IMG/VR virus record: IMGVR_UViG_3300043803_000702
Coordinates: 1-23,499 of that record
From: a virus
Strand: one strand, 5' to 3'
Length of the DNA: 23,499 bases
Part shown: positions 2,967-20,301 of the stretch, one piece after another
Position numbering within the stretch: position 1 is the stretch's first letter
Layout of the letters: every line of letters starts with the position of its first letter
Notes under the pieces: generated by a model
What the model was told of the DNA's origin: nothing
The model's database searches: none
Seen by the model: the letters and a program-made list of their open reading frames with translations, nothing else
Position numbers and translations under genes: made by a program

Positions 2967-5747
2967 TTACTCATATGAAATGTTGATGGCGCCAGCGTCG
3001 AACGTCGGCGTCCCGCTCACTGTAGTTACGCGCAGTTGGGTTAAGGTTGCTGACAGTGCTTTACTCCCCGACACGAAATACGCTCGCGTATTGGTATCGT
3101 CCCCCAAGCCACCAGTGCATGTCCATTTATTGGTCGCCGCGTCGAGCAAGGAGAGCACTAGAGAACCGCTGAGGACATCGGCGGCCAGTACGGAATTGAT
3201 GCCAAAACCGGCAGAATACCCAGCCGTGGTGATGGCCGCGGATGCTATTCTGGCCCCTGCAGCGTTATACGCGGTTGTCTCAATGCCGCCAGAATCCCCG
3301 ATTTGCACCAGTAGATTACTGGTCCCGTTTGTGCTGACCACGTCAAAATTGATTGTGATGCGTTTCGTCCCTGCCGGAATTCCAGAGAATAGAACCGCAG
3401 TTCCTGAAGTAGCAGCAACAGGAGTGCCAAGCGTAATCCCCCCACCGCCGAGCGCAGCAATCGCCTGTGCCACTCGTAGAGGAGATACCGAGCGCAATGC
3501 CGCCTCGGTGCCGGCTTCCATCTCGGCCTGCGAGGCGGATACCGTAGCGATGTCGGCATCGTAGGCTTGAACATCGGTGCCGATGGTCAGCCCGAGCGAA
3601 GTTTTCAGCGTTGCGCCGGATTCGACAACGAAGTTTGTCCCGTTACCGATGACCACGCCATTATCAGTCGGTGTCAGTCCAGCGATGTCATCAAGCTGTG
3701 CGTCTGCTGACTGGTACGCCGTCGAAGCCGTGTAGGCCGCTGTGCCGAGTGTGCCGCCCGTTCCTATCGCCAAGGTGCTGCCGTCTGTCGCTGTGAGCGT
3801 CAGGGTGTTGCTGGCGGTCAGCGTCTTTCCATCAACAAGGGTGAGCGTCGATCCGGTCGCCGGAGCGGTGAATGTAACCTTGTTGATCGTCGTTGCCGAA
3901 GCTACGCCAAGTGCCGGAGTAACCAGCGTCGGCGAAGTGTTCATGACAAACGTGCTGCCGGTGCCGGTCTGCGCGGCGACGGCAGTTGCATTGCCGGTTG
4001 AGGTAATCGGCCCGGTCAGGTTGGCATTGGTTGTAACGGTTCCAGCAGTCAGTCCTGCTGCTGTGCCGGTCAGGTTGGTTGCAACACCGGAGGCAGGTGT
4101 CCCGAGAGCAGGCGTGACGAGCGTTGGCGACGTGGCGAAGACCAGTGCGCCGGAACCCGTTTCGTCGCTGATCACGCCCGCAAGTTGTGCCGAAGTCGTC
4201 GCCGCGAACTGCGACAACGGGTTAGCGACAAGCGCGTCTCCACCACCGACGCCGCCAGGGGTCGCCCACGTACCGTCACCACGCCAGAAGGTCGAAGCAG
4301 TCGCGGATGCGCCGCTGTTCAGATTTGCAACAGGCAGATTTCCAGTAACACCGGACGCCAACGGCAAGCCGGTACAATTGGTCAGCACCCCGGCAGATGG
4401 CGTGCCGATATTCGGCGTCGTCAGCGTTTTGTTAGATAGCGTTTCTGAACCGGCGAGACTTGCGACATTGGCGTCGGATACTGCGCTGTTGAGCTGTGCC
4501 AGCGTGAAACTGCCGAGAACGGCGGCATTGCCGACACTGGTGACATGCCCGGTCAGGTTGGCGTTGGTTGTCACCGTCGCAGCATTGCCAGTGCAGGATG
4601 CCGACGATCCTGTAGTGTTCTGGTTCAACGTCGGGAAATCTCCGGCCACGGCAATGCTTGGCGCTCCAGTCGTCGTTGTGTTCTTGAGTATTCCGGTCGC
4701 CAGCCCGGCCATCGAAACCCCGTTTATTTTCACCACCGTCGCTGCGTTGCCGACGCTAGTAACATCACCGGTTAGATTCGCATTGGTCGTAACGCTGCCT
4801 GCCGTCAGTCCAGAAGCGGTGCCGGTTAAGTTTGTCGCCACTCCGGATGCAGGCGTCCCGAGGGCGCCGCCTGAATACAGAAGCGTTGCATTTGCATCGG
4901 GCAGCGTGAAAGTTTTCTCTGCCGTCGTTGGCCCGGAGAACTTGGCGAAACCGTTGCCGGTGCCGCCGTAGGTCGAGGCGATAACTTGGGTCAGCGCGGC
5001 CGATCCGTCGAAGTCGTTACCGTAGAGCGCACGTGGCGTTGTCAGGGTTGCTGCGCTGCCAGTCGTGCTCTGGTTCAGCGTCGGGAAGGTGCAATTATCC
5101 AGGATGCCTGATGTCGGCGTTCCGAGCGCCGGAGTAACCAGTGTCGGCGACTCAGCAAAGACCAGCGCGCCGCTGCCTGTCTCGTCCGATATGACCCCAG
5201 CCAGTTGCGCCGAGGTAGTCGCTGCGAATTGCGACAACGGTCCGGCGATGAGCACGGCAATCGCCGCTTGCGTCGTGGCCTCGGCGACGGCCTCAACAGT
5301 AGCCTCAATACCAGCCGCACTAGCAGCGGCGTCCTCTGCCGACGCAGCAGCGGCTATCGCGCTGTTCGCGGCGGTCTGTGACGAGGTGAAGGTGATCGCC
5401 GTGGTTCCTGGCGTGATCGGGTCCGCGCTGGCGATTACGAAGAAGAGCCCGGCGTTGATAGTGCCTTCCTGGACCGTAACCTCTGTACCCTTGACAACAT
5501 CGTTCGGACCATTGAAGTCCGTGCTGCGCGACCATGTGCCCGACGACATATCGTAGAAACCGTTCAGGGTCGTGTCTATTTTGTCCTTGACCAACACCCT
5601 CTTGTTCGTATCCGCCTCCACCACCGTCACGCCGTCGATCGTCTGGAAGCCCGCCAACGTGATGTCCGCCGTCGTCGCCACCCGAACAGGGGCCTTGATG
5701 GCGAGGTCGCCCGAAATACCGTTTATCCGATCAACCGACAGAGCCAT
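2967..5747 (-). CDS. Tail fibre protein with internal repeats
   Basis: A 926-residue receptor-binding or fibre protein. Residues 1-120 form a compact domain ([20 protein letters not shown]... [20 protein letters not shown]) of a type seen at the virion-attached end of phage fibres. Residues 125-165 are an Ala-rich helical stretch. Residues 168-700 hold Thr/Gly/Asn-rich repeats such as [19 protein letters not shown] and [17 protein letters not shown], and a 45-residue block occurs twice (170-214 and 510-554). The last 150 residues (from about 770, [23 protein letters not shown] to [10 protein letters not shown]) form a Gly/Ser-rich beta-sandwich tip found at the end of many fibres. No enzyme motif or chaperone domain is visible. 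The SD AAAGGAA overlaps the stop codon of the giant gene upstream, so the genes are probably coupled. The SGNH gene follows 13 bases later. Confidence 0.88.
4086..4220 (-). repeat. Fibre internal repeat, copy B
   Basis: Encodes fibre residues 510-554, from [20 protein letters not shown] to [10 protein letters not shown]. It matches copy A in 43 of 45 residues, yet the two DNA copies differ at many synonymous positions. Confidence 0.85.
5106..5240 (-). repeat. Fibre internal repeat, copy A
   Basis: Encodes fibre residues 170-214, the same 45-residue block as copy B except for two substitutions (Glu/Thr near position 30 and Thr/Ala near position 43). The block lies directly after the Ala-rich helix, at the beginning of the repetitive shaft. 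Confidence 0.85.
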
Positions 5748-5756
5748 GGTGTTCCT

Positions 5757-8700
5757 TTACTTTTTCGATTCGGGCGAGGCTACGCCCGTGATTGTACCCC
5801 GTACCGCATCAAGGGGTCCAGTTGGTGCCACGGCCCCTGCCGCTACGTCAGCGAGGTAGCCGACTGGGCGGGCGAGGGCCGCCGCCGGCAGTCCGGTGAA
5901 GAGGCCGATAAGCTCGGCAACATCCTTGATCGGCTTGCTCGGCTTGCCCCCGTCGAACACTGCGGAGTACAGGTCTTTCGGCAACTTCAGCCCGGCCTCC
6001 AGCGCGCTGATAGCCGGCGCCGTGTTGATCTTGTCGTCGTAGGGCTTGCTGTTCATCGCGTTGATCGTCGCCATCACGGCACGCCCAGGCAGCAGGGCAA
6101 GACCGGTGGCGAACTTCACAGGCCCCATGACGAGGATCTGCTGCGCCCAGTCGTCGATAAGCTGCCCGTCTTTGTCGTCATCGTCCGGACCACCACGGAA
6201 CAGCTGCGCGATCAGCTCGGCGACGATCGCCTGCGCGTAGAAGCCGATGCCGACGATGAAGAAGGCGCGGGCAAACTTCTGCGGCATGCCGACATCGCGT
6301 GCCAGATTCTTCGACCATGCGTTCCCGAGCAGCTGGGCTTGCGTGTTCGACCAGCCAGCGAACTGCGTGAAGAGCTGGAAGAACGGGTGCCCGGCCTCGT
6401 AGGTGGCCAAGTCGGTCGGGCCTGTCGCGCCCTGTGTCTGGCGAATAAGCTCGTCGGCCACATGCACTGCGTCGTTCTCGGAGATGTCTGGCACGCGGTC
6501 CTTGACCTCGTTGTAGCCCGCCGTCCAGATGATCGAACTCAGGTAGGCATCCACCGCGCTCTGCAGGAAATACGCATGCCGCGCTGTCCAGTTTTTGGCG
6601 GAGTCATAGACCGACGGGTTGAGCAGGATCTCGTGGATATTGTGCGAGGCCGCTGATACTTCGTTCTCGATCCGCACGCGCATGTATTTCGACCGGCTCG
6701 TGACGAACTCGACGTTCTCGCTGTGCGAGAACAGGCCCCTGCCCAGCGCCTTCATCAGGTAGCTCGGCTTCTCCATCTTCAGCGATGCCGACAGCACGCC
6801 CGTTACCTGCTGCAGCGTGTTGCTGGCGTTGGCCATCATCCGGGACATACCGGCGTTGGCCCGTGCCTGCGACCAGAAGCTGCCAGCCCCGCCGAACTCT
6901 GGCGAGGACAGCGACGTCTGGTGCTTCGCCGCGCGGTTGAGCCACGGCGTAATCATGCTGTTGATCGCCTTCGGGAAGATGCGGTTGATCGCCGAGGAGA
7001 TGCGCGGGCGCCCAAGGACGCGACGCACGTCGTTGATCGGCACCGTCATGTGCGAGAACAACAGCACCTTGTTGATGTGCCCGGCAAGGCTGCGCAGATC
7101 GAGCAGCAGCTCACGGTTGTAGTTCTCGACGCGGGACTGCGCGAAGCCCTTGGACGGCGTCGGGAAGGCCAGGTTCATCGCGTCGGTTTCCTGCTCCTGC
7201 AGCTTGCGCTTCTCGGCGTCCTTGACGATGTCCGTGTCGGTCAGCGCCGGCACGTAGCCGCCGCGATATTCACCGAACGGCGTCGTCACCGGGTTGGCAG
7301 TGATCTCCGAGAAGAACCGGCCGAAGACTGAGCGGTGCGCAGCCTGCGCAGCCGGCTTCATCGACTCCAGCAGATCCCACACGCCCTGCGCGAAGTCGTA
7401 ATGTGTTTTGGTCAGCACGCCCTCGTTGTGCATCCGCTCGACGAAGGTGTCCCATTTCGAGGTGTCCATCGAGCCATCGTCACGCAGATCCGCCCAGCCA
7501 CGACCGAGCAGCAGCTTGCGCTTGTTGCTGTCGTTGCCTGTGTGCAGGATCGCGTGCAGCAGCTCGGCCACACCACTGCCGCCGGTGCCTTTGCCGAACA
7601 CGTAGCCAAGCTCCGGGGCGTTGATAAGCCTCGGCGCCAGCGACGGACGGATAGCGTCGAGCAACTTGCCGTAGGTGTCCAACGCACCAGCCCGGGCGAT
7701 CAGGTAGTTCGACTCCGCGTCCTTGATGACGCCGATGATGTACTTCGAGAAAGGTCCAGCAACGCGGTTGCCGTCCAACCCGTCGGCCCACTGCTCCATC
7801 CTGCGGGTGACGCTCTTCACGGTCTCGAACAGGAGGCCGATCTTCTCGGCGTCCGTGACAGCATGTCCCTCGCCGGGCACGCGAAGCGGGATGCCTTTGT
7901 CTTCCAGTACCGCGTAAAGTTCCTCGTCGATCGCTTCCAGCGCAACGAGTTTGCCCTCGATCTCGAAGGACCGCGTGCGGCTGGCCAGAGCCCAGATGTC
8001 CTTGACGGAGTCCGAGAGGTCGCGCAGCTGCGCAAGCGGGATCTTCTCCCAGGGCCCTGCCACCATCCCGTCGATCAGCTCCGCCAAGCGGGCGCCCGTC
8101 GCCGGGTCGTGCTCCGTGACGGTCTCCAGGTAGTCCTTGGCCTTGAGCCCCTTGCGCTCGGAGCCGATGCCGACGTCGAAGAGGACCGCACGGAGGGCAT
8201 TGACCGTCGCGAAGTCGCGAGACTTCACGGCGCTGGACTCGTCGTTGTAGGCCGCCAGCTTCTTGAAGCGGTCGATTATTTTCTTGATTTCCTTCTCGGC
8301 GAGATAGGCTTCCTTCGCAGAGACGTGATTGACCAGCTCCGTGCGCTTCTCGGCTGCGGCCTTCTCACGGTCTCCTTTGCGCAGCGCTTCGAGTGCGGCC
8401 TTGCCGGCGCGGGACTCTGCTGCAGCGAAGCCCCAAGGCTTCAGGGTCTTGCTGCTCTTCGTCTCGATGATCTGGCGGGCGTACTCCTTGGCCGCCTTCA
8501 TCAGCACGCTTGGCGCCCCGATGTTCTTGGCCAGTGCCGACAGCTCCGTCGCCACCATCCGGGTGCGCGCGTCGTTGTGGATCGCCTCGTCAGCAGCGCG
8601 GGAGATAGCCTCCGGGCTGGACAGATCGCCGTACTGCTCCAGCATCCGCTGGTCGGTCAGAGCTTCGACTTCATCGGTGAATTTCGTCAGGCCGATCAAC

Positions 8701-11700
8701 TGGCTGACTAGCTCGTCGCCGGTGGCGATGCCGACACGCTCGGCCACTTCATCAGGCGTCAGCCCGATCTCGGCGAGCATGCCGTACTGGCCATACTTCA
8801 GGGCCTTGCGCCAGTCGGGCGCCGGTGTCAGGGCCTCTTCCGGGAACATGGCTGCGACTTCGGAAATCTGCAGCTTGTGGATGCCGAGCGGGGCAATGTC
8901 CATGCCTTCGGGATTGAGCAGCTTCCCGTGCTTCAGGTAGCGCTCTGCCATTCGGATAGGTGTCGCGGCTACCTCGGCCTTCACTTCCTTGAAGACGGCA
9001 GCCCGCTGTTCTTTGGCGTCGGCCTGCAGCTCGGCGATGATCTTGTTGCGGCGGTTCTGCAGCCACTTCATGTCGCGCAGCCCGCGGGTCCGCAGCATCT
9101 CCTCGGCGTCGGCCCTCTGATCGCTGGAGAGGGCCGTGTAGGCCGCGAAGTCCTTGTCCGACATGCCAGCCTCAGCCGCGTCTTTGAACAGCGCTACGAA
9201 GCCGCGCGCCGCGTTGGCGGCTGCGATCTCGCTCTCGGGCGCCAGCATGTTGTCGAATACCGCAGCAAGTTCCGGGTTCAGCTTCGCGCCGTCGTGGCCG
9301 GCGATGAACTCCTTGATGCTGGCATAGACCTTCGTGAGCCAGGACGCGAAGCGCTGGAACAGCGGCTGCAGCTCCAGGCTCGGAGCCTTGCCGGTGAAGA
9401 GGTACTGCTCGAAGCTCTCGGCGAACTGCTCGTGGTAGGGGCGCTGCAGCTCCAGCGGCATCGCCTGCCAGGTCGCGACGTCGGCAATCCCGAACTGCTT
9501 CAGGATCTCGGCCATCCCCTTCGTGATCGCTTCCGGGGCATCAGGCTGCGAGGCCAGATCCGCATAGACGGTCAGGAAGAAGTGCCCGGTCTCATGCAGG
9601 AAGGTCGAGAGATTGGCGTCAGCCAGCAGGCGGAGGTCGAGCGTGTTCGGGTTGAAGCTGCCGAGCTTGTCGCCGTTCTTGGCTGCGTAGAGGTCTGTCG
9701 CTTGCTGCCACAACGCACCGGTGATCTCGTCGATGTAGTAGCTCTTGGCCGGGTCGAACTTCGAGAAGTCGATCTGCGCGGCGGTGTCCGGGTGCTTGGC
9801 GGTGATTTTCTCTTTCCACTTTGTGGCCGTGAGCGCGCCGCCCGGCAACGTCCGATCGTTCGCCAGCGTGATGGCTGCAGCTTTCAACGCAGGGATCTCC
9901 GCCGGCGGCGGGACCGCGGCCATGGCGTTCGCTTCCGTCAGGCCGCCGACGTGCGGAGCAATGACGCTGCGATCGCCAAGCAGCACCGCCGTGCCTTCGT
10001 TGGTGAAGTTGTCGCGTTGCAGGTATCCGTCAAAGCCGGCGTCGATGACCGAACTCTCGAAGGCGTTCGCCTTTTCGTTGTTGGTGGCGCCTGCCCGATT
10101 GCGGTACAGCTTCAGTGCGTCAGCATCGGCGTCGTACAGGTTGGTGAGCGTCGCGACGTGCGCGGCCCCGCCGACGCCTGCTTCCGGGTGGATGCCTTTA
10201 CCGTTCGACACGTAGAAAGCGATGCGCTGCTTAATGCGCGGATCGTTGGGCTCTGCCAAGCGCGTGCGCTCGGCCCCCTGCAGCCCGGTCCCGAAGGCGG
10301 AGCTGGTGAGTACGCCACGCTTCTCGCGGGAGAAATGGATGCCGACTACTGGGCCGGCGACGGCGCCGGGCTTTGCTGCGGTGTTTTCTTGGTAGAGCTT
10401 GCCCAAGCCTTGCGCGTTTTCGCGACTTGCTCGGGCGTCAGCGTAGCCATTGAAGTCAATCGTTCCGTTGTGCTCATCGACGGGCGCGGCGCCGATGCGT
10501 TCCCACCAGCTTCTGGCGCTGGGGACAATGTGCCAGATGCCGAGTTCCCCGACATCGTTGGTGATTGCTGCGACTGTTTGTTCGGCATAGCGTTTTCCTC
10601 TTTGGTCGTTTGCCACTTCGATGTCGAGCAGCATGGTCGGCCAGCCATCGGCCAGCTCAAGTACAGTGTAGCCTACACTACGACCATTTGCATCCTGAAT
10701 TTCGTACTTCACCGCGCGCTCGTTGCCGAGCGGCTTGTAGAAAACGTCGTGCCCTTCGGTCACATCCACTGGTTTTGCGAGCGCGATCTGCCCGTTCTTC
10801 CACGTCGGGAAGCCGTTCTCGGTGCCAGCCTCGGTCCATGCAACGGTCTTGCGGATCGCTTCGACTTGAGCCGGGGTGACGGTCTGGAAGTCGCGGGCTG
10901 TCTGGTGCAGGTACGCGTCGTGGATGTCGGACTCCATGCCCCGCGCCGGGAAGGTCTGTTCGCGCACGTCAAACACCTCGGAGACCCGCAGGCCCGTCTT
11001 CCCTGTGCTGTAACCTATAACCGCGTCATACCCAGCAGCGCGCACCGCGTGGGCGACGATGTTCTCCTGCACGGCGTAGGGGAGCAGATTCCCGCGCCGG
11101 CTGTTGCGCACGATCTCCGCTGCGAGCCCCGGCTCGGCGCCGTAGCGCGTTAGCATTTCCCTGACGTTTTCGATTTTCTGCGCGGTATCGGCGCCAAACC
11201 CAGAAATGGCGCGCAGCACATCGCCCCGCATGGCCTCGTAAGCCTTCTTGCCCTTCAGGATGTCATAGGCCGCTTCAGGAGCTTTGCCCCCGGTTGCGCC
11301 TTTCACGAACAAGGGGCGCCGAACGAGGGTTTCCCCCTTGAACTCTTCGGCCCTGCCGTACTCGTTACCTGAAGCGAGGGTTCCTTTTTTCTTGTAGTGC
11401 TTGGCCGTCGTTGCCCCTGTTGGTAGGTAGAAGACCCCTGTGCGGATCGCCTGCGCACCCTCCTGCGCCTGCTTCTGGTAGCGCACTAGGTCGATAAGCA
11501 ACCCGTCTTTTGTGATCTTGGCCCCTGGGGTGCCAGCCACCGCATCGATGAACTCTTGCGACGTGGGCAATTCGACGGGTACGTTCGTCTGCAGGGCCTG
11601 TTCTGGCGAGATTTGGTGCAAGACCGGCCCACCATACGCTGCGTTGAGAAGCGCGTTGCGTTCGGTCTGGAGCTGACCAAGGCGCGTGTTCAGTGCCGCG

Positions 11701-14120
11701 CGCTTCTCGGGCGAGGTCTCTGCCAGTTTGGCCAGGAGGGACCACATCTCCCCCTTCACTTCTTCCGCAGTGCGAGCCCGCTGGTTCAGCACATCCGACA
11801 GCTGCGTGCGCGGACCCTCGAAGTCCAGCCCGACGGTGAAGTGCGTGCCGTCCGGGAGCGTGGTGTAGAAGTCTTCCGGCTCGGTAGGATGCACGGTCAC
11901 GTCGGTAGAGGGGGTGACACTGCCGTCCTGGTAGATCAGCCCGTGCCGCGTGAGCACCGACTCTTGCTCGAACTTCTTGGCCAGGGCCAGTGCCTGCTCA
12001 GGCGAGACACCGGTCACGACGAAGGAGTTCTCCGGCTGGCCGTAATGCCCCTTCACTGGCGTGGCGTCGAACCCTTGGGCGGCCAGATACTGCTGCAGCT
12101 CGGCATTGCGGGCTGCGTTCTCCTCGTCGGAGAGCTTCTGCGCGTTCGGATTCTCCGCTGTCAGAATCGTCCAGTCGTCGGTCTTCAGCAGGTTCGCGAC
12201 GCCGGCCTGCGTGAAGGTGGCCTTGGAAGCCTTCTCCAGTTGGTCGAAGCCCCGTGCCGCGTTCTGCGTGCCGCCGATGTTCAGCTTGTACCCCTTGCGG
12301 GCTACGCCTTGCGCGTCAGTCCAGCCGTCACGCAGCTGCAGAGGGGTTATCCCCAACTGGCTGGCCATCGTCGTGTAGAACGCGCCTGTGAGCGTCGCGT
12401 AGCTGGAGGTGGCCTGCGGTCCGAAGCGGCCGAGGGCGTCGAGCTGGGCCTTGATGTCGTCCTGCACGGTCTTGGCGCCGGCTACGAAGTCCTCGTTGCG
12501 GGACTGCTCCTCGATGATGCGCTCGGCTTCCTTCTGGAAGAACTCGGAGGCCTTGGTGCCCGCCTCGCGCGTCTCGGCGAGCGTCGGGGCGTCAGCCCCA
12601 AAACGGATGTGCGGGATCAGCGCAGCTTCGGCGCCGGTGCCCGCGAGGCCGGTGAGCAGTTCGCCGACTGGAATCTCGATGCCCGGCCCCGCGATCTCGC
12701 CGGTGGCGAGCTGTGCCGCAGCGCTGGGCAGCACGGACACATCGATCCCCGCTTCGGTCAGTACCTCGGTGAGCTTGGCGCTGTCGATAAGCACGGAGGC
12801 GTCGGGGGCGAGGGCCTGGAAAAACGCCTTCAGGGTATCGGGGTCGCGAGCAAAAAACGCCGGGTCTTGCAGCGTCGCGAACATCTCCTGCATTTTGGCC
12901 GCGTTGATCTGCGCCTCGCCGGCTTGCGCTTCGGTGCCGATGTACCGCCCAGCAGCGATAATGCTCGCGTCAAAAGCCCCGCCAGGGATCTCGGCAATAG
13001 CCTCGCTGAAGGCGGCATTGAAGCTGACCTCCTGCCCAGATAGCGCGGAGCCGGCCACTTCCCCGCCAGCGCCACCCGCCATCTGCACGCCGGTTTGCGC
13101 GGCGAGGTTGCGACCTGTGCCTTTTGCAAGACGCACCCCTCCGGCGATGCCGGCGGTTGCGGCGTCGAAACCGCCGATTATTGCGTTTTTAACGAAGGCC
13201 CTCTGCACTGTCCTCTTGAACTCCGGGTCGGTGCTCAGCGCGCTGATCGCCTCCGTGTCGCCGAGGTCGATCTTGCGCTTGTCCAGCTCCCCGGAGATGT
13301 CGGCCTGAAAGCCAGTAAGGAACGAGCCCCCACCGGTTCCGCCCATGAGGCCGCGGACACCGCCAACAAGACCGCCGCCGATCATGAGCGGCATGACGGG
13401 GAGCAGCTGCCCTGTGGATTGGGCCATCAGCTGTGCTGTAACGGCGAAGGGGGCGTTCGCGAAGGTTCCGAGGGTGTCGCGCACGCCTTCGGAGCGGCTG
13501 AAAGCCTCAAACTCCGGCGTCATGGGGAGTTTTTTAATGTCTCCAGTGCGGCGGGTGTATTCAACCAAGTTCTCGCGGTAGCTCGCCTCCGCCTCCGCAC
13601 GACGGCGTTTCAGGGCCTCTGGACTCCCACCCACCCCAGCGAAAAGGCTGCCGTATTTTCCGGTGAGGACGCTCTTATCCCCGCCTTCGAGCGCGGCCAC
13701 CGCGTCAAGGATCTCGACGGACTCCAGGATAGTCGATGCGTCGGAAGCCCGGAGCCCGGAGGTCAGGCCGCGCTTGAAGGAGGTCAGCACCCCCTCAAGG
13801 GCTGACAGCTCCGGCACCTTGTCCCGGTACAGCCCTGCGTTCTTCGGATCGAGCAGGAAATTCGTGGTCTTCGGCGACGTATCGACGAGCCCGGTGAAGT
13901 CGGTGCCCTGCAGCACTTCGTGGCGCTTGGCTTCTTCAGGGTCTGCGAACAGGGACTGCGGGGGGATGCCCGTCGCGCGCGAGAGTGAGATCTGCTTGGC
14001 GAAGTCGTCCGGGCTCGTGCCCGCTGAGTTTGCCCAGTTGTTCCGCAGGGTGGTTGCTTTGAACTCGGATTCTTTCGCTAGGAAGGAGTCCAGACCGGCC
14101 TGCAGATCGTTATCGGGCAT
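5757..14120 (-). CDS. Giant multidomain virion protein (polyvalent-type, 2,787 aa)
   Basis: Probably an internal core protein ejected into the host with the DNA. Visible regions in order are: Gly-rich hydrophobic segments (about 227-270 and 311-392); a WTILTAENP...ENAARNAEL segment (637-703, resembling DUF3293); a segment ending GYDAVIGYS...SEVFDVR (892-1064) and a second, IHFSREKR...FGTGLQGAE...DAGFDGYL (1256-1386, His1262), both resembling ADP-ribosyltransferase folds of polyvalent proteins; a GNAT-like segment with QRGKRYAEQTVAAI (1135-1227); a zincin-like HETGH (1509-1513) with a candidate third ligand Glu1568; long coiled-coil regions (about 1640-2000); and a C-terminal portion resembling LPD38 domains with hydrophobic segments near 2617-2637 and 2660-2688. 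The gene abuts the transglycosylase gene with no gap and is followed by the fibre. It fills the place of T7 gp15/gp16, but is about twice the length of gp16. Domain names are from pattern memory; the virion role rests mainly on position and the C-terminal portion. Confidence 0.9.
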   Translation of the reverse strand: MPDNDLQAGLDSFLAKESEFKATTLRNNWANSAGTSPDDFAKQISLSRATGIPPQSLFADPEEAKRHEVLQGTDFTGLVDTSPKTTNFLLDPKNAGLYRDKVPELSALEGVLTSFKRGLTSGLRASDASTILESVEILDAVAALEGGDKSVLTGKYGSLFAGVGGSPEALKRRRAEAEASYRENLVEYTRRTGDIKKLPMTPEFEAFSRSEGVRDTLGTFANAPFAVTAQLMAQSTGQLLPVMPLMIGGGLVGGVRGLMGGTGGGSFLTGFQADISGELDKRKIDLGDTEAISALSTDPEFKRTVQRAFVKNAIIGGFDAATAGIAGGVRLAKGTGRNLAAQTGVQMAGGAGGEVAGSALSGQEVSFNAAFSEAIAEIPGGAFDASIIAAGRYIGTEAQAGEAQINAAKMQEMFATLQDPAFFARDPDTLKAFFQALAPDASVLIDSAKLTEVLTEAGIDVSVLPSAAAQLATGEIAGPGIEIPVGELLTGLAGTGAEAALIPHIRFGADAPTLAETREAGTKASEFFQKEAERIIEEQSRNEDFVAGAKTVQDDIKAQLDALGRFGPQATSSYATLTGAFYTTMASQLGITPLQLRDGWTDAQGVARKGYKLNIGGTQNAARGFDQLEKASKATFTQAGVANLLKTDDWTILTAENPNAQKLSDEENAARNAELQQYLAAQGFDATPVKGHYGQPENSFVVTGVSPEQALALAKKFEQESVLTRHGLIYQDGSVTPSTDVTVHPTEPEDFYTTLPDGTHFTVGLDFEGPRTQLSDVLNQRARTAEEVKGEMWSLLAKLAETSPEKRAALNTRLGQLQTERNALLNAAYGGPVLHQISPEQALQTNVPVELPTSQEFIDAVAGTPGAKITKDGLLIDLVRYQKQAQEGAQAIRTGVFYLPTGATTAKHYKKKGTLASGNEYGRAEEFKGETLVRRPLFVKGATGGKAPEAAYDILKGKKAYEAMRGDVLRAISGFGADTAQKIENVREMLTRYGAEPGLAAEIVRNSRRGNLLPYAVQENIVAHAVRAAGYDAVIGYSTGKTGLRVSEVFDVREQTFPARGMESDIHDAYLHQTARDFQTVTPAQVEAIRKTVAWTEAGTENGFPTWKNGQIALAKPVDVTEGHDVFYKPLGNERAVKYEIQDANGRSVGYTVLELADGWPTMLLDIEVANDQRGKRYAEQTVAAITNDVGELGIWHIVPSARSWWERIGAAPVDEHNGTIDFNGYADARASRENAQGLGKLYQENTAAKPGAVAGPVVGIHFSREKRGVLTSSAFGTGLQGAERTRLAEPNDPRIKQRIAFYVSNGKGIHPEAGVGGAAHVATLTNLYDADADALKLYRNRAGATNNEKANAFESSVIDAGFDGYLQRDNFTNEGTAVLLGDRSVIAPHVGGLTEANAMAAVPPPAEIPALKAAAITLANDRTLPGGALTATKWKEKITAKHPDTAAQIDFSKFDPAKSYYIDEITGALWQQATDLYAAKNGDKLGSFNPNTLDLRLLADANLSTFLHETGHFFLTVYADLASQPDAPEAITKGMAEILKQFGIADVATWQAMPLELQRPYHEQFAESFEQYLFTGKAPSLELQPLFQRFASWLTKVYASIKEFIAGHDGAKLNPELAAVFDNMLAPESEIAAANAARGFVALFKDAAEAGMSDKDFAAYTALSSDQRADAEEMLRTRGLRDMKWLQNRRNKIIAELQADAKEQRAAVFKEVKAEVAATPIRMAERYLKHGKLLNPEGMDIAPLGIHKLQISEVAAMFPEEALTPAPDWRKALKYGQYGMLAEIGLTPDEVAERVGIATGDELVSQLIGLTKFTDEVEALTDQRMLEQYGDLSSPEAISRAADEAIHNDARTRMVATELSALAKNIGAPSVLMKAAKEYARQIIETKSSKTLKPWGFAAAESRAGKAALEALRKGDREKAAAEKRTELVNHVSAKEAYLAEKEIKKIIDRFKKLAAYNDESSAVKSRDFATVNALRAVLFDVGIGSERKGLKAKDYLETVTEHDPATGARLAELIDGMVAGPWEKIPLAQLRDLSDSVKDIWALASRTRSFEIEGKLVALEAIDEELYAVLEDKGIPLRVPGEGHAVTDAEKIGLLFETVKSVTRRMEQWADGLDGNRVAGPFSKYIIGVIKDAESNYLIARAGALDTYGKLLDAIRPSLAPRLINAPELGYVFGKGTGGSGVAELLHAILHTGNDSNKRKLLLGRGWADLRDDGSMDTSKWDTFVERMHNEGVLTKTHYDFAQGVWDLLESMKPAAQAAHRSVFGRFFSEITANPVTTPFGEYRGGYVPALTDTDIVKDAEKRKLQEQETDAMNLAFPTPSKGFAQSRVENYNRELLLDLRSLAGHINKVLLFSHMTVPINDVRRVLGRPRISSAINRIFPKAINSMITPWLNRAAKHQTSLSSPEFGGAGSFWSQARANAGMSRMMANASNTLQQVTGVLSASLKMEKPSYLMKALGRGLFSHSENVEFVTSRSKYMRVRIENEVSAASHNIHEILLNPSVYDSAKNWTARHAYFLQSAVDAYLSSIIWTAGYNEVKDRVPDISENDAVHVADELIRQTQGATGPTDLATYEAGHPFFQLFTQFAGWSNTQAQLLGNAWSKNLARDVGMPQKFARAFFIVGIGFYAQAIVAELIAQLFRGGPDDDDKDGQLIDDWAQQILVMGPVKFATGLALLPGRAVMATINAMNSKPYDDKINTAPAISALEAGLKLPKDLYSAVFDGGKPSKPIKDVAELIGLFTGLPAAALARPVGYLADVAAGAVAPTGPLDAVRGTITGVASPESKK
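9417..9596 (-). other. Zincin-like metallopeptidase motif inside the giant protein
   Basis: Covers residues 1509-1568 of the giant protein. FLHETGHFFLTVYADL gives HExxH, and after about 55 residues HEQFAESFEQYLFTG gives Glu1568, a suitable third zinc ligand. The HETGH...AESFEQY layout is like the metallopeptidase domain described in phage and plasmid polyvalent proteins. Confidence 0.65.
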
Positions 14121-16385
14121 TTATCGTAGTCCAAGTTTTTGCTGCTTATAGTAGGTCAGAAGCTGGGCGTCTGTCGGTTTCGGGATGCCGTTCGCTTTGA
14201 ACAGGCTCTTGATGTCGGACAGTGATGCCGATGGTACATCAGAAATGCCCAGCGACAAAACAGCCACGGGGTTGGCGTCCCCGTAGGCGAAGCCCGCGAA
14301 GGTGCTCTGCAGCCGCACATCCTGCCGGAACAGGGTATCGACGTGCTTCAGCATCTCGACTTCGGTGAGCTTGCGGCCGATCTGCTTCTGCCGGTCGAGC
14401 ACGGACTGGTCGAGGATCGCACGAGCAGAATTCACCCGGGCCTGCCCCGCGGTGTCAGTCTCTTTCGGCGTCGGGTCGATTTCGAGCATCCGCAGGCGCG
14501 AGGACAGGATCGTGTGCAGCGTGCCGTTGTCCAGAGACTCGGCTTCGGCCACGTTGCCGCCAAGGAGGGCCGAGCGCTGGGTGTCGAATCGCTTCCAGTC
14601 GTAGGCCGACAGCTGTGTTTTCATCGGCCCCGTCCATGCCGAAGTCGGCACGCGGGCCAAGTAGTTCGGGTCGGAGTTGATCTGCGACAGGAGGCCCTGG
14701 CTGCTGTCCCGTGGGGTACCGGCGATGTGTGCCTCGAAGGTGCTGCGCACCTTGTCTTGCTCCACCGGTGGCAGTTTGTTCAGGAGGCTTGGAGGCACTT
14801 CGGCGAAGGTGCGACCCTGCCCCATGTACTTGTAGATCGACTCGGTGGTGGTCTCGATCTCCACCTTGCGGGCCTCTTCCATCGTCTTGAGCTGGTGCGT
14901 CACCAGACTGGTGGCTTCCTTTGCCAAGTCGGGACGCCCCGGATAGCGCGCGGCCATCTGGGCTTCGACCTCACGTGCGGTCGGCTGCACGATGTCGGGC
15001 GCGGCCTTCGTCGCCCCCAGAACGCGGGAGACATACGGCTTGGTTTCACCCGGCTGTGGGAGGAAATCGAGGAACGAAATCGGGCCATCTTTTGCCGGGT
15101 TGTAGCTGCCAGGCCTCCCCGGGAACGTCGCGGTGAGCGTGCCATTCTCGCGGGCGGCGGCTTCTGCCTGCTGGAACCTGTCGAAGCGCTTCTTGGCCTC
15201 GATGACGTTCCCCTCGCCCGCGTTGTAGGCTGCCGCAATTTCCTCGGGCTTGTCGAACATCTTCATCAGCCGCGTGACGTGGGCCTTCTGCAGCTTGTCG
15301 TGGTAGGCCTTGCCCTCCGGTGTCGGGGAGTAGAACAGCTCCTTGTCCCAAGGGATGCCCGCTTCTTTCGCATCCTGCTCGGCAGAGGCCGGCATGATCT
15401 GGTGCGCGCCGACGGCTTGCTGCCCCTTGCTCGGTCCCGAGGCGATGACCGGGCCCAAGATGACCTTGCCATCTTTCCCGAGGTGTTGCCCGCGGGACTC
15501 GGCTTGCGTGATGTTTCGCTCCATGTCGGCCTGCACCAGGACGGAGGAGAGCTTCCCTTCGACCGTCTGAGCGGGGAGCACGACCGTGGTCAAGAACGTC
15601 TGGGCGTCGGTGCGTACCTGCTCCGTCTCGCGCAGCTTGGTGACGTGCTCGTTGAGCTTGATGCGGGTGCCGGGGTCGATGACCAGGGTGTTTGCTTTGA
15701 GGAGCGCTTCCGCGCGCGGAAGGTCGCGGGCATCGAGAGCGGAGGTGACCGCTCCAGTAATCATCGGCGACATCGCCTTCTGTCGCATAGCCATGAGCGT
15801 GTCGGGGTCAGAGATCCCCTGCTCCTTGGCGGTAGCCATCACCAGATTTTCGAGCGCGACTCGTTGGTTGTCGAAGCCGATAGGGTCTTGCCACTGCACG
15901 ATGCCGGCATTGGTGGCCGTGGTTGCGGTGCCCTCGCGCACAATGCCTTTGTACCGCTCGGACTCCGTCATCGAGTGCCGCAGGATGTCGGACTGCAGAC
16001 CCAAGACCTCGCGGTCGGCGTGCGATTTCAGACGAGCCTGCTGGGGGGCCGACAGGCCAGACATAACCCCTTCGACCGTGGTGTTGAGCTGAGACTTGTA
16101 GCCGCTCATGTAGGTCGGGGTGAGGACGTCGCCGCCCTTCACCTGGTAGGCGCCTTTGTCCCCCATGGTGAGGTCGAGACGGGCCTGCCTGATCTTGTTC
16201 AGGGCGTCTTCCGCCTTGAGCGCGTCGAGCTTGTCCGTCTCCTGCTTCATGATGGCGCCGATGTCGCTTACGAGCTGGGCAGGGCCCATGTCTGGAGCGA
16301 CGCGCACCGGGGTGGCGTTGTAGATGTCGCGCGAAGGCCGCGGGGTGCTCAGGCCGTAATCTTCAGGAGAGGGTAGGCGTGCCAT
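14121..16385 (-). CDS. Internal virion protein with lytic transglycosylase (SLT) domain
   Basis: A 754-residue protein expected to cut peptidoglycan locally during DNA ejection. The catalytic domain lies at about residues 290-450: AESRGQ with catalytic Glu296, GAHQIMPASA (about 326-335), AAYNAGEGNV (384-393) and ETKPYVSRV. These are the standard SLT/lysozyme-like motifs in the right order. The remainder is helical, charged and without membrane segments: residues 1-290 look like a core-assembly region, and the C-terminal 300 residues are probably a second structural region. T7 carries its transglycosylase at the N terminus of gp16; here it lies centrally in the smaller of the two large core proteins. 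The ATG shares a base with the upstream stop (TGATG) and the stop directly abuts the giant gene, so the three core genes form one translational block. Confidence 0.9.
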   Translation of the reverse strand: MARLPSPEDYGLSTPRPSRDIYNATPVRVAPDMGPAQLVSDIGAIMKQETDKLDALKAEDALNKIRQARLDLTMGDKGAYQVKGGDVLTPTYMSGYKSQLNTTVEGVMSGLSAPQQARLKSHADREVLGLQSDILRHSMTESERYKGIVREGTATTATNAGIVQWQDPIGFDNQRVALENLVMATAKEQGISDPDTLMAMRQKAMSPMITGAVTSALDARDLPRAEALLKANTLVIDPGTRIKLNEHVTKLRETEQVRTDAQTFLTTVVLPAQTVEGKLSSVLVQADMERNITQAESRGQHLGKDGKVILGPVIASGPSKGQQAVGAHQIMPASAEQDAKEAGIPWDKELFYSPTPEGKAYHDKLQKAHVTRLMKMFDKPEEIAAAYNAGEGNVIEAKKRFDRFQQAEAAARENGTLTATFPGRPGSYNPAKDGPISFLDFLPQPGETKPYVSRVLGATKAAPDIVQPTAREVEAQMAARYPGRPDLAKEATSLVTHQLKTMEEARKVEIETTTESIYKYMGQGRTFAEVPPSLLNKLPPVEQDKVRSTFEAHIAGTPRDSSQGLLSQINSDPNYLARVPTSAWTGPMKTQLSAYDWKRFDTQRSALLGGNVAEAESLDNGTLHTILSSRLRMLEIDPTPKETDTAGQARVNSARAILDQSVLDRQKQIGRKLTEVEMLKHVDTLFRQDVRLQSTFAGFAYGDANPVAVLSLGISDVPSASLSDIKSLFKANGIPKPTDAQLLTYYKQQKLGLR

Positions 16386-16999
16386 CAGTCGTAGATCTGC
16401 CCAGAGAAGGTTTTAGGATTGAAGGGCCCGTTGGCCGTGAAGCTGCCTGTGTAGTCAGAGACCCCTGCGTCGATGCCCGGCGCTGGTCCGGGCGCGAAGC
16501 TGCTGAACATGCTGGAAGCCCCCTTAGCAACACTGCCCAGGATCGAGGCGTTCCCTTGCGCTCGTGCGTTTGCGACCTCGGCGTTGCCGCGGTTCGTGGC
16601 CTCCACGAGACCTGCCTGGCCACGGTACTGCAACCCCTTGGCCCGTTCGGTGGAGGCGTAGGTGCTGTAGCCGGCGTCAGTCTCACCGGCACCGACGATG
16701 CCGGCCATCAAGGTCTCGTCGAGCGGGCCCCCACCGGAAGCCGCAGACACCGCCCGCGCTCGTGAGAGCATCAGGTCGGCCTTCTTGCGTTTCGCTACGG
16801 CCTCGTGCTGCCCGGCTGCGAGTTCCTGCCCGGCGGCGTAGTCCATCTGCTTCTGGTTCGCCAGTGCGGCCTCTTCCCCTGCTTTTGCATTGGCCCTCGC
16901 GGCGTCGTTTTGGGCCTTGGCGCCCATAACAGATGCGGCTATCGACGCGGCCGTTGCGGCGTAGGAGACCCATGCGGGGATCGCGGCCATGAATGCCAT
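16385..16999 (-). CDS. Internal virion protein, T7 gp14-like
   Basis: A 204-residue protein with a hydrophobic Ala-rich start (AAIPAWVSYAATAASIAASVMGAKAQ, about residues 4-29), a long Ala/Glu/Lys-rich helix to about residue 90, and a Gly/Ser/Pro-rich tail (SSFAPGPAPGIDAG, then GSFTANGPFNP). This arrangement is typical of the small core protein that enters the outer membrane in T7-like phages. An AAGGAG five bases before the ATG at 16999 fixes the start and lies inside the 3' end of the upstream GNAT gene. A second ATG at the fourth codon is less well placed. Assignment rests on composition and position between nozzle and transglycosylase genes rather than on a catalytic motif. Confidence 0.78.
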   Translation of the reverse strand: MAFMAAIPAWVSYAATAASIAASVMGAKAQNDAARANAKAGEEAALANQKQMDYAAGQELAAGQHEAVAKRKKADLMLSRARAVSAASGGGPLDETLMAGIVGAGETDAGYSTYASTERAKGLQYRGQAGLVEATNRGNAEVANARAQGNASILGSVAKGASSMFSSFAPGPAPGIDAGVSDYTGSFTANGPFNPKTFSGQIYD

Positions 17000-17000
17000 G

Positions 17001-17372
17001 TCAGCTCCTTATCAAAGTTTCACCGAAGGGGCCGAAGGCGCCTGTCGGTCTCCAGCCCAACTTAATGAGCAAGTAGGCCGCTGTCGGTTCATCAGCATTC
17101 GCGATCGCATAGACAGGGCCCTTTGTTTTCTCAACGAGTTCCATCAGCATTCTACACCCTATGGCAAGCGCTTTCCTGTTCTTGCGCAGCGCCCCCCGGA
17201 TCTCACTGAAGGCGACCGGCTTGCCACCGAGGTAAAAGACCCCGCCGATGCCTACCAGCTCGCCCTCGCACCGGGCCGCGTAGCCGCGGAAGGAGGTCTC
17301 GGGCGGGCCCTGATACCACTCCTCGGCGTCGCGCGCGGTGGCGGGGCTGAAGACGATCTCGCTACTTGACAT
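17001..17372 (-). CDS. Small GNAT-like acetyltransferase-fold protein
   Basis: A 123-residue protein resembling GNAT proteins: a strand/turn region YAARCEGELVGIGGVFYLGGKPVAF, a helix after RKNRKALAIGCRMLMELVEK in the place of the acetyl-CoA loop, then VYAIANADEPTAAYLLIKLGWRPTG, where the N...A..L..KLGW ending is the usual GNAT C-terminal motif. The classic Q/RxxGxG/A loop is poorly kept, so acetyl transfer is uncertain and a structural role is possible. The gene lies between the nozzle and the gp14-like gene, where T7 has gene 13, and GNAT-like proteins at this position occur in other podoviruses. It overlaps the nozzle 3' end by 11 bases and stops one base before the next start. Confidence 0.75.
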   Translation of the reverse strand: MSSSEIVFSPATARDAEEWYQGPPETSFRGYAARCEGELVGIGGVFYLGGKPVAFSEIRGALRKNRKALAIGCRMLMELVEKTKGPVYAIANADEPTAAYLLIKLGWRPTGAFGPFGETLIRS

Positions 17373-20298
17373 GGCCCGTCACCGACAAGACGGTCGCGAG
17401 GACCGTGCAAGGCCGGGGGCTGGCAGCGCGGAGGCACAGTCTGGCGTCGTTGCTCCAGGCACCATCGACTTCGAGCGAATCGGCGTTGTAGCTGACCCAG
17501 ATTTTGTCGGGATCTACTTCGCCGCCTTTGTCGTCAATCAGGGGCATGCCGTCGAGATTGTCGTAGTCCTGCCCGTAGCGCAGACCTTGCGCGTGGGTGT
17601 TGGCCAGAAGAAGCCCGACGTGATGCACTTGCTGCTGCTGACTCAGGGGCACCTCGGACACGTTGGTGAATTTCGCGCTCCGGAAGTCTGCGGTGTAGGG
17701 CAGGCCGATATATGCCAGCGTCACGGCTTCGGACAGCGTGATGCCGCCACTGGACACGACGTAGGAGCCAAGGTCTTTGCCCCCACCCCAGACGACAACC
17801 GTCTCGCCTTCGAGGTGGTCGAGACCGGTGATGGTCGTCGTGGAGGCTCCGCTGTACTCGATCGAGGAGTCGGACAGGAGCGTCATGAGGTCGCCTTGCC
17901 CCTCGGTCTCCAGGGCCCACTTCTCGACGTAGCGTTTCGTGTTGCCGTTGATCGTCCTGCGCACGGTGTAATAGACGAGATCCTCGATCGGACCTGGGAG
18001 GACCGTTACGTCTTCGACGAGTCCGTCGGTCTCGTACAACACCCAACAAGTCACCTTCTCCACGCGGTCGAAAACGAGGATCGCAACAGAGCCATCCGCA
18101 CGCACGCAATGGATGCGCGTGTCCGGTTGGCGCTGCACGGCAACACGGAGAAAACCCGCGGCGCCGATCTCAGGAACGATCGCCGTGAGGTCGTTGGATG
18201 TGTAGTTGTAGGTCGAGCCATCAAGGGCCAGTTCATAGACCCGGGAGCCGCTGCGCTGCACGTAGATCCCGCCAGTATCGACCTTCACGGCACGCAGTGC
18301 GGCTGAGCCGAGGGTCGATGCTGGCTTCAGGCTAAAGGCCGTCGGCGTGAGGGGCTCGTCAAGCGAGCTTGCCTTGGCTACCAGCTCCGCACCCTGCGTG
18401 CCTACCAGCAGCGACGGCAGGGACAGGAGCCAGTTGATTGTATCGACCGGCCCGGAACCGATGCTGCGCGAGATTGGTCCGGAATCCCCCTCTGTCTCAT
18501 CGTCGAACGAGTCGAAGGCGTCGGACACTGACCCCCATATTTTGTCCTTGCCGGCCCACCATAGCCGCCCATCGTGCATGGCAACGGCGCTCGGATACCC
18601 GCGCTTGGCCGACCACGCGCCCTCAGACCAGTCATCGGTGGAAGAAGTGCTGCCAAGATCAGAAAGCACCGAGGCTGATACACTGGTCGGGCTGCTGTAC
18701 CCCGTGATTCGCGCAATGCCAACGATCGACCCTGCGGCATAGATCAGTTCGGACAAAACACTGTCGGCAACCGTGAAATCGCCCGTCTTGATACCAAGCC
18801 GGTAATAGGCTATCTGATTAGGTAGCAGATCGCTGTAGTTTCTCACGCCGGCTGTGGTCCAGCTTAAGACATCAAACCAGTCGCCCGGCTCAGTAAGGGA
18901 GCGCTGCAGGGTTACGGTCGTCGTCGCGGTGAATGTCGGATTGGCAGAAATATTGACCGAGAAGGTGCGAGCGTTACCGACTCCGGTAACGCGAATGTGG
19001 TTGGTGAAGGTATCTTCAGCGGTCAGCGTCGAAGATACTGTCTGCCCGGTCGAGACCAGACGGAACAGTGCGCCGACCTGTGATGCAGAAAACAAGCCCT
19101 TGCTCGCCGTCAGTGTGACATCGCCGGAAACGGCCGATGCCGTGATGCGGATTGGCCCGGTATTGGTTACTCTAAATGGCCCGTCAGTCGGAGCGTATTC
19201 GACCACCGACCATGACCTGGTTGCTTGGCGCTCAATACGCATCGGCGCGTAGTCTTTGCACGCAACAAATATCACATCGCCAGACTGCGAGCCGTCACCG
19301 CCGCGAATTCCGGGCAACGCGGCCACAGGCCACGGCGTAGCGACGACCATATCGCCCGCCGCCTCAACAGTCACGCTATCGACCAGTGAGGCCGCGTCAC
19401 CAGTACTAGACAGTCGGATATGGAAGTCCCCGGTCGGGGTGAAGGCCAGCGAATGATAGCCGGTGCGCAGTACGGTCGCATCGCGATACTGCTCTCCGCC
19501 CGAGCTTGAACCGATGCGGATAGTCACCTCGCCGCGCTGGATGTGGATAGCGAGGGCATGCTCCTTGTTCAGGTCCCCACCGGCCACCGTGACCTGTTGA
19601 TCGCGCATCGCCGCGTTGGTGCCAGTGCCGAGCAGCGACAGATAACCGCCGCTCGCCCAAGACGAGACTGCTCCGGGTTCGTCGGCATCGGTCCATCCGC
19701 TGATCGCATAAAACGCTTGCAGGGTATGCACGCCTGACTGCGTGCCAGAGGTATTGATTGCCGCACCACCAACCGAGGCCGACAGGGTAATAGCGTTGGT
19801 TCCAGTGTTCAGCGTCTTGACGTAGTAGGTCGTCCCGGCGACAAGGCCGGTCGGTAAAGCGCCTGTGGTGGCTAGCGTTACCGGAGCATTGAGGGCGAAC
19901 GAATCGGCTCCGGCGTAAGTAATCACGCCAGGCGAGGCGATGGTTATGGTAGCAGTGTCGGTGTATTGCGCGAAGCCACCATTGCTCACGGCAGAGGCGA
20001 CCGACGTGCGCGTGAGCACCTCGTCGTCAATCACGACGCGCATGGCGCTGTCGGTCAGTTCAATCAGTGCGGTGGCATCCGCCGCGAAGACGAACTCCAG
20101 ATGCGCGGCTGCGGCGTCGTCCTTCGTGCTGTGTAGAAAGCGGGTGCCAGGGCGGAGGGACATCGCCCCGAGTACGCGGGGCATCCAGTTCGTCTGTTCT
20201 TCCGCGGACATCGCCATGCGCTTCATGTCGGCGCGTGCCACTGCGAGCGGGGAGACGATCCCGCGGTTGAAGGCGAGGAGTACGGGGCGGGCTTCCAT
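17362..20298 (-). CDS. Tail nozzle protein, T7 gp12-like (tail tubular protein B)
   Basis: A 978-residue structural protein that would form the distal tail tube and fibre attachment surface. The first 100 residues (FNRGIVSPLAVARADMKRMAMSAEEQ.NW, then LRPGTRFL) have the family's opening pattern, and later blocks such as DGRLWWAGKDKIWGSVSDAFDSF (about residue 590) and RAVKVDTGGIYVQRSGSRVYEL (about 680) are typical of podovirus nozzle proteins. It is longer than T7 gp12 (794 aa). The excess fits two inserted modules: residues 113-196 (TTGALPTGLVAGTTYYV, a Thr/Gly-rich module of the kind seen in fibres) and 199-316, a beta-sandwich that may bind carbohydrate. The ATG is three bases after the adaptor stop; no strong ribosome site is visible, suggesting coupled translation. 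Confidence 0.87.
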   Translation of the reverse strand: MEARPVLLAFNRGIVSPLAVARADMKRMAMSAEEQTNWMPRVLGAMSLRPGTRFLHSTKDDAAAAHLEFVFAADATALIELTDSAMRVVIDDEVLTRTSVASAVSNGGFAQYTDTATITIASPGVITYAGADSFALNAPVTLATTGALPTGLVAGTTYYVKTLNTGTNAITLSASVGGAAINTSGTQSGVHTLQAFYAISGWTDADEPGAVSSWASGGYLSLLGTGTNAAMRDQQVTVAGGDLNKEHALAIHIQRGEVTIRIGSSSGGEQYRDATVLRTGYHSLAFTPTGDFHIRLSSTGDAASLVDSVTVEAAGDMVVATPWPVAALPGIRGGDGSQSGDVIFVACKDYAPMRIERQATRSWSVVEYAPTDGPFRVTNTGPIRITASAVSGDVTLTASKGLFSASQVGALFRLVSTGQTVSSTLTAEDTFTNHIRVTGVGNARTFSVNISANPTFTATTTVTLQRSLTEPGDWFDVLSWTTAGVRNYSDLLPNQIAYYRLGIKTGDFTVADSVLSELIYAAGSIVGIARITGYSSPTSVSASVLSDLGSTSSTDDWSEGAWSAKRGYPSAVAMHDGRLWWAGKDKIWGSVSDAFDSFDDETEGDSGPISRSIGSGPVDTINWLLSLPSLLVGTQGAELVAKASSLDEPLTPTAFSLKPASTLGSAALRAVKVDTGGIYVQRSGSRVYELALDGSTYNYTSNDLTAIVPEIGAAGFLRVAVQRQPDTRIHCVRADGSVAILVFDRVEKVTCWVLYETDGLVEDVTVLPGPIEDLVYYTVRRTINGNTKRYVEKWALETEGQGDLMTLLSDSSIEYSGASTTTITGLDHLEGETVVVWGGGKDLGSYVVSSGGITLSEAVTLAYIGLPYTADFRSAKFTNVSEVPLSQQQQVHHVGLLLANTHAQGLRYGQDYDNLDGMPLIDDKGGEVDPDKIWVSYNADSLEVDGAWSNDARLCLRAASPRPCTVLATVLSVTGHVK

Positions 20299-20301
20299 GG
20301 G

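Follow-up and report, generated by a model that had tools for sequence, protein, structure and literature searches.

The giant gene and its genomic context

The window analysed here is a viral fragment of 23,499 bases from IMG/VR (IMGVR_UViG_3300043803_000702), in which a single minus-strand gene encodes a giant protein of 2,787 residues. On balance, we favour the view that this protein is an internal (ejection) protein of a podovirus, in which a constant delivery chassis holds a slot of exchangeable payload domains. The best-supported enzyme domain in the slot is predicted to adopt the fold of phage S-adenosylmethionine (SAM) lyases and was overlooked in an initial annotation of the sequence.

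The gene is one unbroken open reading frame (ORF) with an ATG start, abutting a transglycosylase gene on one side and a fibre-like gene on the other, the placement given in the initial annotation. The minus-strand order is major head protein, tail tubular A- and B-like proteins, gp14-like protein, SLT transglycosylase, giant protein, fibre-like protein and endolysin (Table 1), and the same arrangement surrounds bbp10 in BPP-1 and is found in podoviruses of Pseudomonas and Caulobacter. The operon is of the T7/BPP-1-like structural type, and a putative core-protein role agrees with the gene order here and in these relatives.

Table 1. Features of the window and of the giant protein (aa, residues of the giant protein).
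Feature	Residues (aa)	Coordinates	Strand	Basis or remarks
Giant protein gene, Bbp10/phrog_9880 family	1-2787	5757..14120	minus	ORF, PHROG profile and tblastn
N-terminal chassis region	1-600	12321..14120	minus	aa 1-125 and 375-600 common to many relatives
LPD22 (Pfam)	33-120	13761-14024	minus	E 8.1e-16, over cut-off
Payload slot	601-1487 (~887 aa)	9660..12320	minus	Length and content vary between relatives
SAM-lyase-fold domain (DUF3293 / S-AdoMet_lyase)	636-775	11796..12215	minus	Pfam, homologue's model, aligned E697
ADP-ribosyltransferase (ART)-like domain 1 (ART1)	830-1065	10926..11633	minus	Invariant R880, Y898, E1048; family outside Pfam and PHROGs
Segment initially labelled GNAT-like	1085-1245	10386..10868	minus	No homologue or profile match
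ART-like domain 2 (ART2)	1255-1395	9936..10358	minus	Common to L002, L003, L021, L022, L050, L055, L069, L072
Zincin (CLCA_X-like)	1487-1640	9201..9662	minus	Ligands H1509, H1513, E1571; base E1510
C-terminal chassis region	1640-2787	5760..9203	minus	No Pfam or PDB sequence match
SLT transglycosylase-containing virion protein, immediately upstream of giant gene		14121..16385	minus	PF01464 E 1.5e-06, phrog_10475
gp14-like internal virion protein		16385..16999	minus	phrog_418 internal virion protein, E 1.6e-06; T7_gp14 under cut-off
Tail tubular B-like and A-like proteins		17362..20940 (B-like 17362-20298, A-like 20302-20940)	minus	phrog_376, phrog_394
Major head protein		22399-23229	minus	
Repetitive fibre-like protein, directly downstream of giant gene		2967..5747	minus	Sequence; same position as BPP-1 bbp9
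Endolysin		1016-1585	minus	

The constant chassis of the Bbp10 family

The top PHROG profile for the giant protein is phrog_9880 (function not assigned; aa 1465-2782, 1074.7 bits), and homology to Bbp10 extends across the C-terminal ~1,300 residues (tblastn of the giant protein against BPP-1, E 1e-121). The tblastn search retrieved 111 phage records including Bbp10, all below 60% identity; 68 of these are Flavobacterium phages that match in the DUF3293 region only. When the whole giant protein served as query against viral contigs, nothing was retrieved.

Two blocks are common to the Bbp10 family, aa 1-600 and aa 1487-2787, and by sequence comparison the constant chassis is made up of the N-terminal ~600 residues and a C-terminal zincin with the ~1,150 residues that follow it. 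The initial annotation had described an LPD38-like C-terminus, which found no support at E ≤ 1 in the window or E ≤ 0.01 in 16 aligned relatives; the LPD domain that is present is the N-terminal LPD22. A profile of the C-terminal region gave chance matches only when compared with PDB sequences.

The zincin motif of the initial annotation is present: HETGH spans aa 1509-1513 and a Glu follows further downstream, at aa 1571. In an alignment of 28 sequences, 27 retain HExxH and all retain E1571. An HExxH motif and a third ligand are thus in place for a predicted zincin metallopeptidase. Residues 700-1000 of Bbp10 had earlier served as a seed of the zincin-like CLCA_X family (PMC3650047). Because the HExxH and E1571 are conserved across the family and located in the shared C-terminal block, the zincin is part of the chassis and not of the variable effector set to which it had initially been assigned.

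Members of the Bbp10 family, including bbp10 itself (locus L004) and many relatives, are labelled "crystallin beta/gamma motif-containing", "lysin" or "lysis protein". These labels find no backing when the window's giant protein is scanned against Pfam and PHROGs, and they were rejected. Taken at their word, such annotations would make the giant protein a structural lysin or lysis protein, which we consider very unlikely, as its Pfam scan contains no peptidoglycan hydrolase domain, an SLT transglycosylase is encoded by the adjacent gene, and the domain types in the slot are directed at nicotinamide adenine dinucleotide (NAD), SAM or nucleic acid. Among the relatives, Limnohabitans phage DC33 (L003, PQ492659.1) is recorded as Inoviridae, yet encodes a podovirus-type giant homologous to that of the window.

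The payload slot

The slot between the two blocks is 181 residues long in BPP-1 and PfDIW6, 224 in a Caulobacter phage, 399 in L020 and 1,332 in L063, and relatives with 50% chassis identity differ in the slot by whole domains. The slot of L020 contains an HD domain and DUF3293, after which the chassis follows directly; that of L021 contains ART-PolyVal (E 1.7e-27), DUF3293 and ART2, without ART1; and that of L063 contains ART1 and then ART-PolyVal. Because length and whole domains differ between relatives while the flanking blocks stay constant, the slot content is read as an exchangeable payload.

Across 27 slot regions, Pfam identifies ART-PolyVal in nine, DUF3293 in six, and PBECR5 and HD in two each, with LPD23, PBECR1, a methyltransferase, GNAT, DUF3990 and DUF7178 occurring once. 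In L020 and L023 the HD domain (HD_5, E 9.8e-17 in L020) adjoins the SAM-lyase-fold domain. The window slot consists of four segments: the SAM-lyase-fold domain, ART1, the stretch initially labelled GNAT-like, and ART2. The slot comparison fits the polyvalent-protein concept (PMC5512222).

The SAM-lyase-fold domain

In the Pfam scan, aa 653-722 match DUF3293 (E 6.8e-15, over the cut-off) and aa 661-724 match S-AdoMet_lyase (PF23780, E 7.8e-07), the latter with 29.5 bits against a cut-off of 28 for the whole protein and 31.3 bits with the slot alone as query. Related DUF3293-type domains are found in 43 IMG/VR viral loci, mostly inside ORFs of ~1,000 to 3,700 residues. Of 32 records with the domain, 12 match PF23780 at E ≤ 0.1 and five of these exceed its cut-off; none of 14 control genomes has a match. 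The DUF3293 profile gave chance matches only against PDB sequences; matches to SAKe were discarded as repeat matches with a very low per-copy score.

The fold was read from an AlphaFold model of the DUF3293 and ART2 stretch of L021, a homologue 47% identical to the window copy, with a predicted local distance difference test (pLDDT) score of 83 overall and 90-98 over most of the DUF3293 core. The first two PDB matches of this model are T3 SAM lyase (8bb1, E 3.7e-4; 7ock, E 1.4e-3; both with a probability of 1.00) and Svi3-3 (6znb) ranks eighth, which points to the PII-like alpha-beta fold of T3 SAM lyase.

In both HHalign and MAFFT alignments, window E697 aligns with the catalytic E68 of T3 and Q719 with the Gln in the WEQDCVL of T3. 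HHalign assigns a low probability (28%) to the match with the single T3 sequence, and so the main ground for mapping E697 to E68 is that both alignments agree with the fold match. In vivo rescue is lost in T3 E68Q and Svi3-3 E69Q (PMC7877911), and SAM and SAM-AMP lyases have the corresponding Glu and a Gln in common as their conserved residues (PMC12255297). The invariance of QESV among the copies is biased, because this motif belonged to the search pattern. Gln or Asp occupies the catalytic Glu position in L031, L035, L038, L051 and similar giants, which possibly are inactive or have another role.

The genomes of L020 and L023, whose giants carry the domain, also contain solo ORFs of 137 and 138 residues that match PF23780 and keep the catalytic Glu and Gln (L126:464 onward, plus strand; L127:532 onward, minus strand). 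In Flavobacterium elemo phages, a homologous domain lies in a giant protein annotated "structural protein", a label for which a mass-spectrometry origin could not be established.

The ART-like domains and the GNAT-like segment

Two ART-like segments had been proposed initially. The motifs of both bear this out in part, namely invariant R880, Y898 and E1048 across 43 sequences in ART1 and an H...Y...E pattern in ART2 that is common to other giants (the segment is found in at least eight). Neither reaches PF18760 (ART-PolyVal): Pfam searches gave no match for either, nor did PHROGs for ART1, and the profiles of both gave chance matches only against PDB sequences. A joint MAFFT alignment of DUF3293 and ART1 was misaligned and left unused; bridging proteins were taken instead.

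The ART1 model is confident (pLDDT 89) and its first PDB match is the anti-CRISPR protein 6kyf (E 0.024, probability 0.66; below significance), which we take to be the ADP-ribosylating AcrIF11. Several of its BFVD matches carry the name ART-PolyVal or PolyVal ADP-ribosyltransferase, the best of them at E 0.013, and the two with E below 0.001 are unnamed; matches to chalcone synthase and KaiC were set aside as noise (probability below 0.1). For ART2, the joint L021 model has no ART among its top PDB matches. Both domains are regarded here as probable, putative ARTs.

ART1 appears to be a separate family, unlisted in Pfam and PHROGs, and is encoded in 61 viral loci, most as solo proteins of ~250-400 residues. 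Members of the family (L065-L123; e.g. L083:5545-6741 and L089:5695-6714) consist of ART1 and a short N-terminal part, without a PHROG match. In the two neighbourhoods examined, ART1 lies by major head and tail protein genes (L083) and by terminase, portal and scaffold genes (L089).

The segment between the two ART-like domains, initially called GNAT-like, could not be confirmed and stays unclassified: searches of viral contigs, Pfam and PDB found no match, and its motif A (QRGKRYA) is degenerate.

Proposed mode of action

In the mechanism that we propose, the giant protein would be packaged in the head alongside the transglycosylase and the gp14-like protein, be ejected as infection starts and thread into the cytoplasm, where its domains would refold. 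The zincin may cut the polypeptide and release the payload. The SAM-lyase-fold domain would then degrade SAM and blunt SAM-dependent defences (type I and III restriction, BREX), and the ART-like domains would ADP-ribosylate host proteins. Delivery with the virion would place these activities ahead of any phage gene expression.

Several points weigh against this mechanism. Known SAM lyases act as trimers and form the active site where subunits meet (PMC7877911), an arrangement that a 300-kDa protein would also need. A literature search gave no direct evidence of the giant protein or Bbp10 in virions or entering the cell. The identity as ARTs is sub-significant for ART1 and motif-based for ART2. 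The catalytic position of the SAM-lyase-fold domain is Glu in 28, Gln in six and Asp in three among 39 phage copies; as the Glu is not universal, some copies may be inactive or have another role.

The latter observation bears on an alternative in which the SAM-lyase-fold and ART-like segments are inactive former enzymes, serving as binding modules (e.g. for nucleotides or host proteins) or as structural fillers of the ejected protein. Such a role would suit the nine of 39 copies with Gln or Asp in place of Glu, the PII-type, ligand-binding nature of the fold (PMC7877911) and the lack of Pfam matches in the ART-like segments, but it sits poorly with the Glu and Gln retained in the window copy, the invariant R, Y and E of ART1 in 43 sequences, and the gain and loss of domains as whole units, and we consider it improbable.

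Quantity is a further point against the proposed mechanism. A cell contains an estimated 1e5 or more molecules of SAM. Phage P22 carries about 12 to 30 copies of each ejection protein, N4 packs 4 ± 1 virion RNA polymerases (PMC12633501), and Svi3-3 turns over ~10 times per second (PMC7877911). By our estimate, injected copies would clear tens to a few hundred SAM molecules per second and the bulk SAM would therefore drop slowly. It follows that the effect would be local, or would add to that of an expressed copy, or that the true substrate is scarce, e.g. SAM-AMP.

The last of these possibilities can be put as an alternative in its own right, namely that the payload targets the SAM-AMP of type III CRISPR, a SAM-derived immune signal that is scarce, and not bulk SAM, with the adjacent HD domains of relatives belonging to the same anti-signalling set. 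A handful of injected copies would be enough because SAM-AMP is scarce, and the copy-number arithmetic favours such a substrate. The fold and the conserved Glu and Gln also occur in SAM-AMP lyases, of which a phage-encoded example has been described (PMC12255297); HD domains are found in L020 and in two of 27 slots. However, the top structural match is T3 SAM lyase and not a SAM-AMP lyase, and HD domains act on many substrates. As a specific claim this is unlikely.

A broader version of the proposed mechanism, tentative and itself rather unlikely in full, would have virions pre-loaded with a SAM-lyase-fold payload on the conserved injected chassis, which erases SAM-AMP or another SAM-derived immune signal, or lowers the local level of SAM, from the onset of infection, backed in some phages by a second, separately encoded lyase.

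The SAM lyase of T3 is a known anti-restriction device, which requires transcription and translation before it can act. A SAM-lyase-fold domain in giant, probably injected proteins suggests that phages deliver counter-defence ready-made, and the virus may start disarming the host before its own genes switch on. The constant chassis and defined slot would offer a simple readout of the counter-defences carried by a podovirus, and the idea can be tested in natural relatives that have or lack each payload (L020, L021 and BPP-1). ART1 is a candidate new effector family.

Other genes of the window

Three further minus-strand genes were classified by eye. The gene for a 123-residue, GNAT-like protein (17001-17372) is flanked by those for the tail tubular B-like and gp14-like proteins, and a Pfam scan of the 123-residue protein was empty even at E ≤ 10. 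An HNH-endonuclease-like protein (21731-22384; VDHVIPLQGDNVSGLHVPLNLRI), possibly a homing endonuclease, is encoded by an insertion that separates the major head protein gene from the tail tubular A-like gene. At 1982-2974, downstream of the fibre-like gene, lies a gene for an SGNH/GDSL hydrolase-like protein that has a leader peptide and the motifs VGDSITKG, GYNDMR and DRVHPSENG. The fibre-like protein itself contains repeated blocks (...LVTPALGTP) and gave no match in the Pfam scan.

Comparison with known systems

Bbp10 of BPP-1 and the phrog_9880 family share a homologous chassis and an equal place in the operon with the giant protein; Bbp10 differs in its 181-residue slot, in which neither a SAM-lyase nor an ART-like domain was detected. 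The phage SAM lyases T3 SAMase and Svi3-3 (PMC7877911) share the fold, the Pfam family and the aligned catalytic Glu and a Gln, whereas the window domain forms part of a presumed virion protein of giant size. The SAM-AMP lyases, including a phage candidate (PMC12255297), belong to the same fold family and conserve the Glu and Gln; the window domain is placed here by fold, not by specificity. ART-PolyVal (PF18760) has strand motifs similar to those of the window's ART-like segments, and named PolyVal ARTs are among the weaker structural matches of ART1, although both segments fall short of the PF18760 model.

The virion RNA polymerase of N4 (PMC12633501) is likewise a giant ejected protein with an N-terminal domain, an enzyme, an HExxH domain and a large C-terminal domain, but the payload of the window is not a polymerase. 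The resemblance is an analogy only, because the PDB search of the C-terminal region found no sequence relationship to any chain.

The polyvalent proteins (Iyer et al. 2017, PMC5512222) are likewise large multidomain phage proteins that are encoded among structural genes and combine LPD22, a zincin and enzyme-type domains of disparate kinds; relatives of the giant protein carry their ART-PolyVal and PBECR domains. The window protein joins LPD22, a SAM-lyase fold, a zincin and ART-like domains in one ORF, the activities of which are predicted, and of the typical LPD, ART-PolyVal and MPTase domains it has LPD22 and the zincin ligands, with ART-PolyVal in relatives only. The polyvalent reading of the initial annotation is thus largely right: LPD22, the zincin, at least one enzyme-fold domain and the known polyvalent domains in relatives' slots uphold it, while its parts list needs correction, in that LPD38 drops out, GNAT is unconfirmed and the SAM-lyase fold is added. 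The running text of that paper, domain tables aside, does not name DUF3293, SAMase or adenosylmethionine, and the window family is distinguished by a single slot between conserved blocks, defined by comparison. With the polyvalent concept already known, what is new here is this defined slot and the SAM-lyase-fold payload, which recurs across the viral loci mostly in giant proteins.
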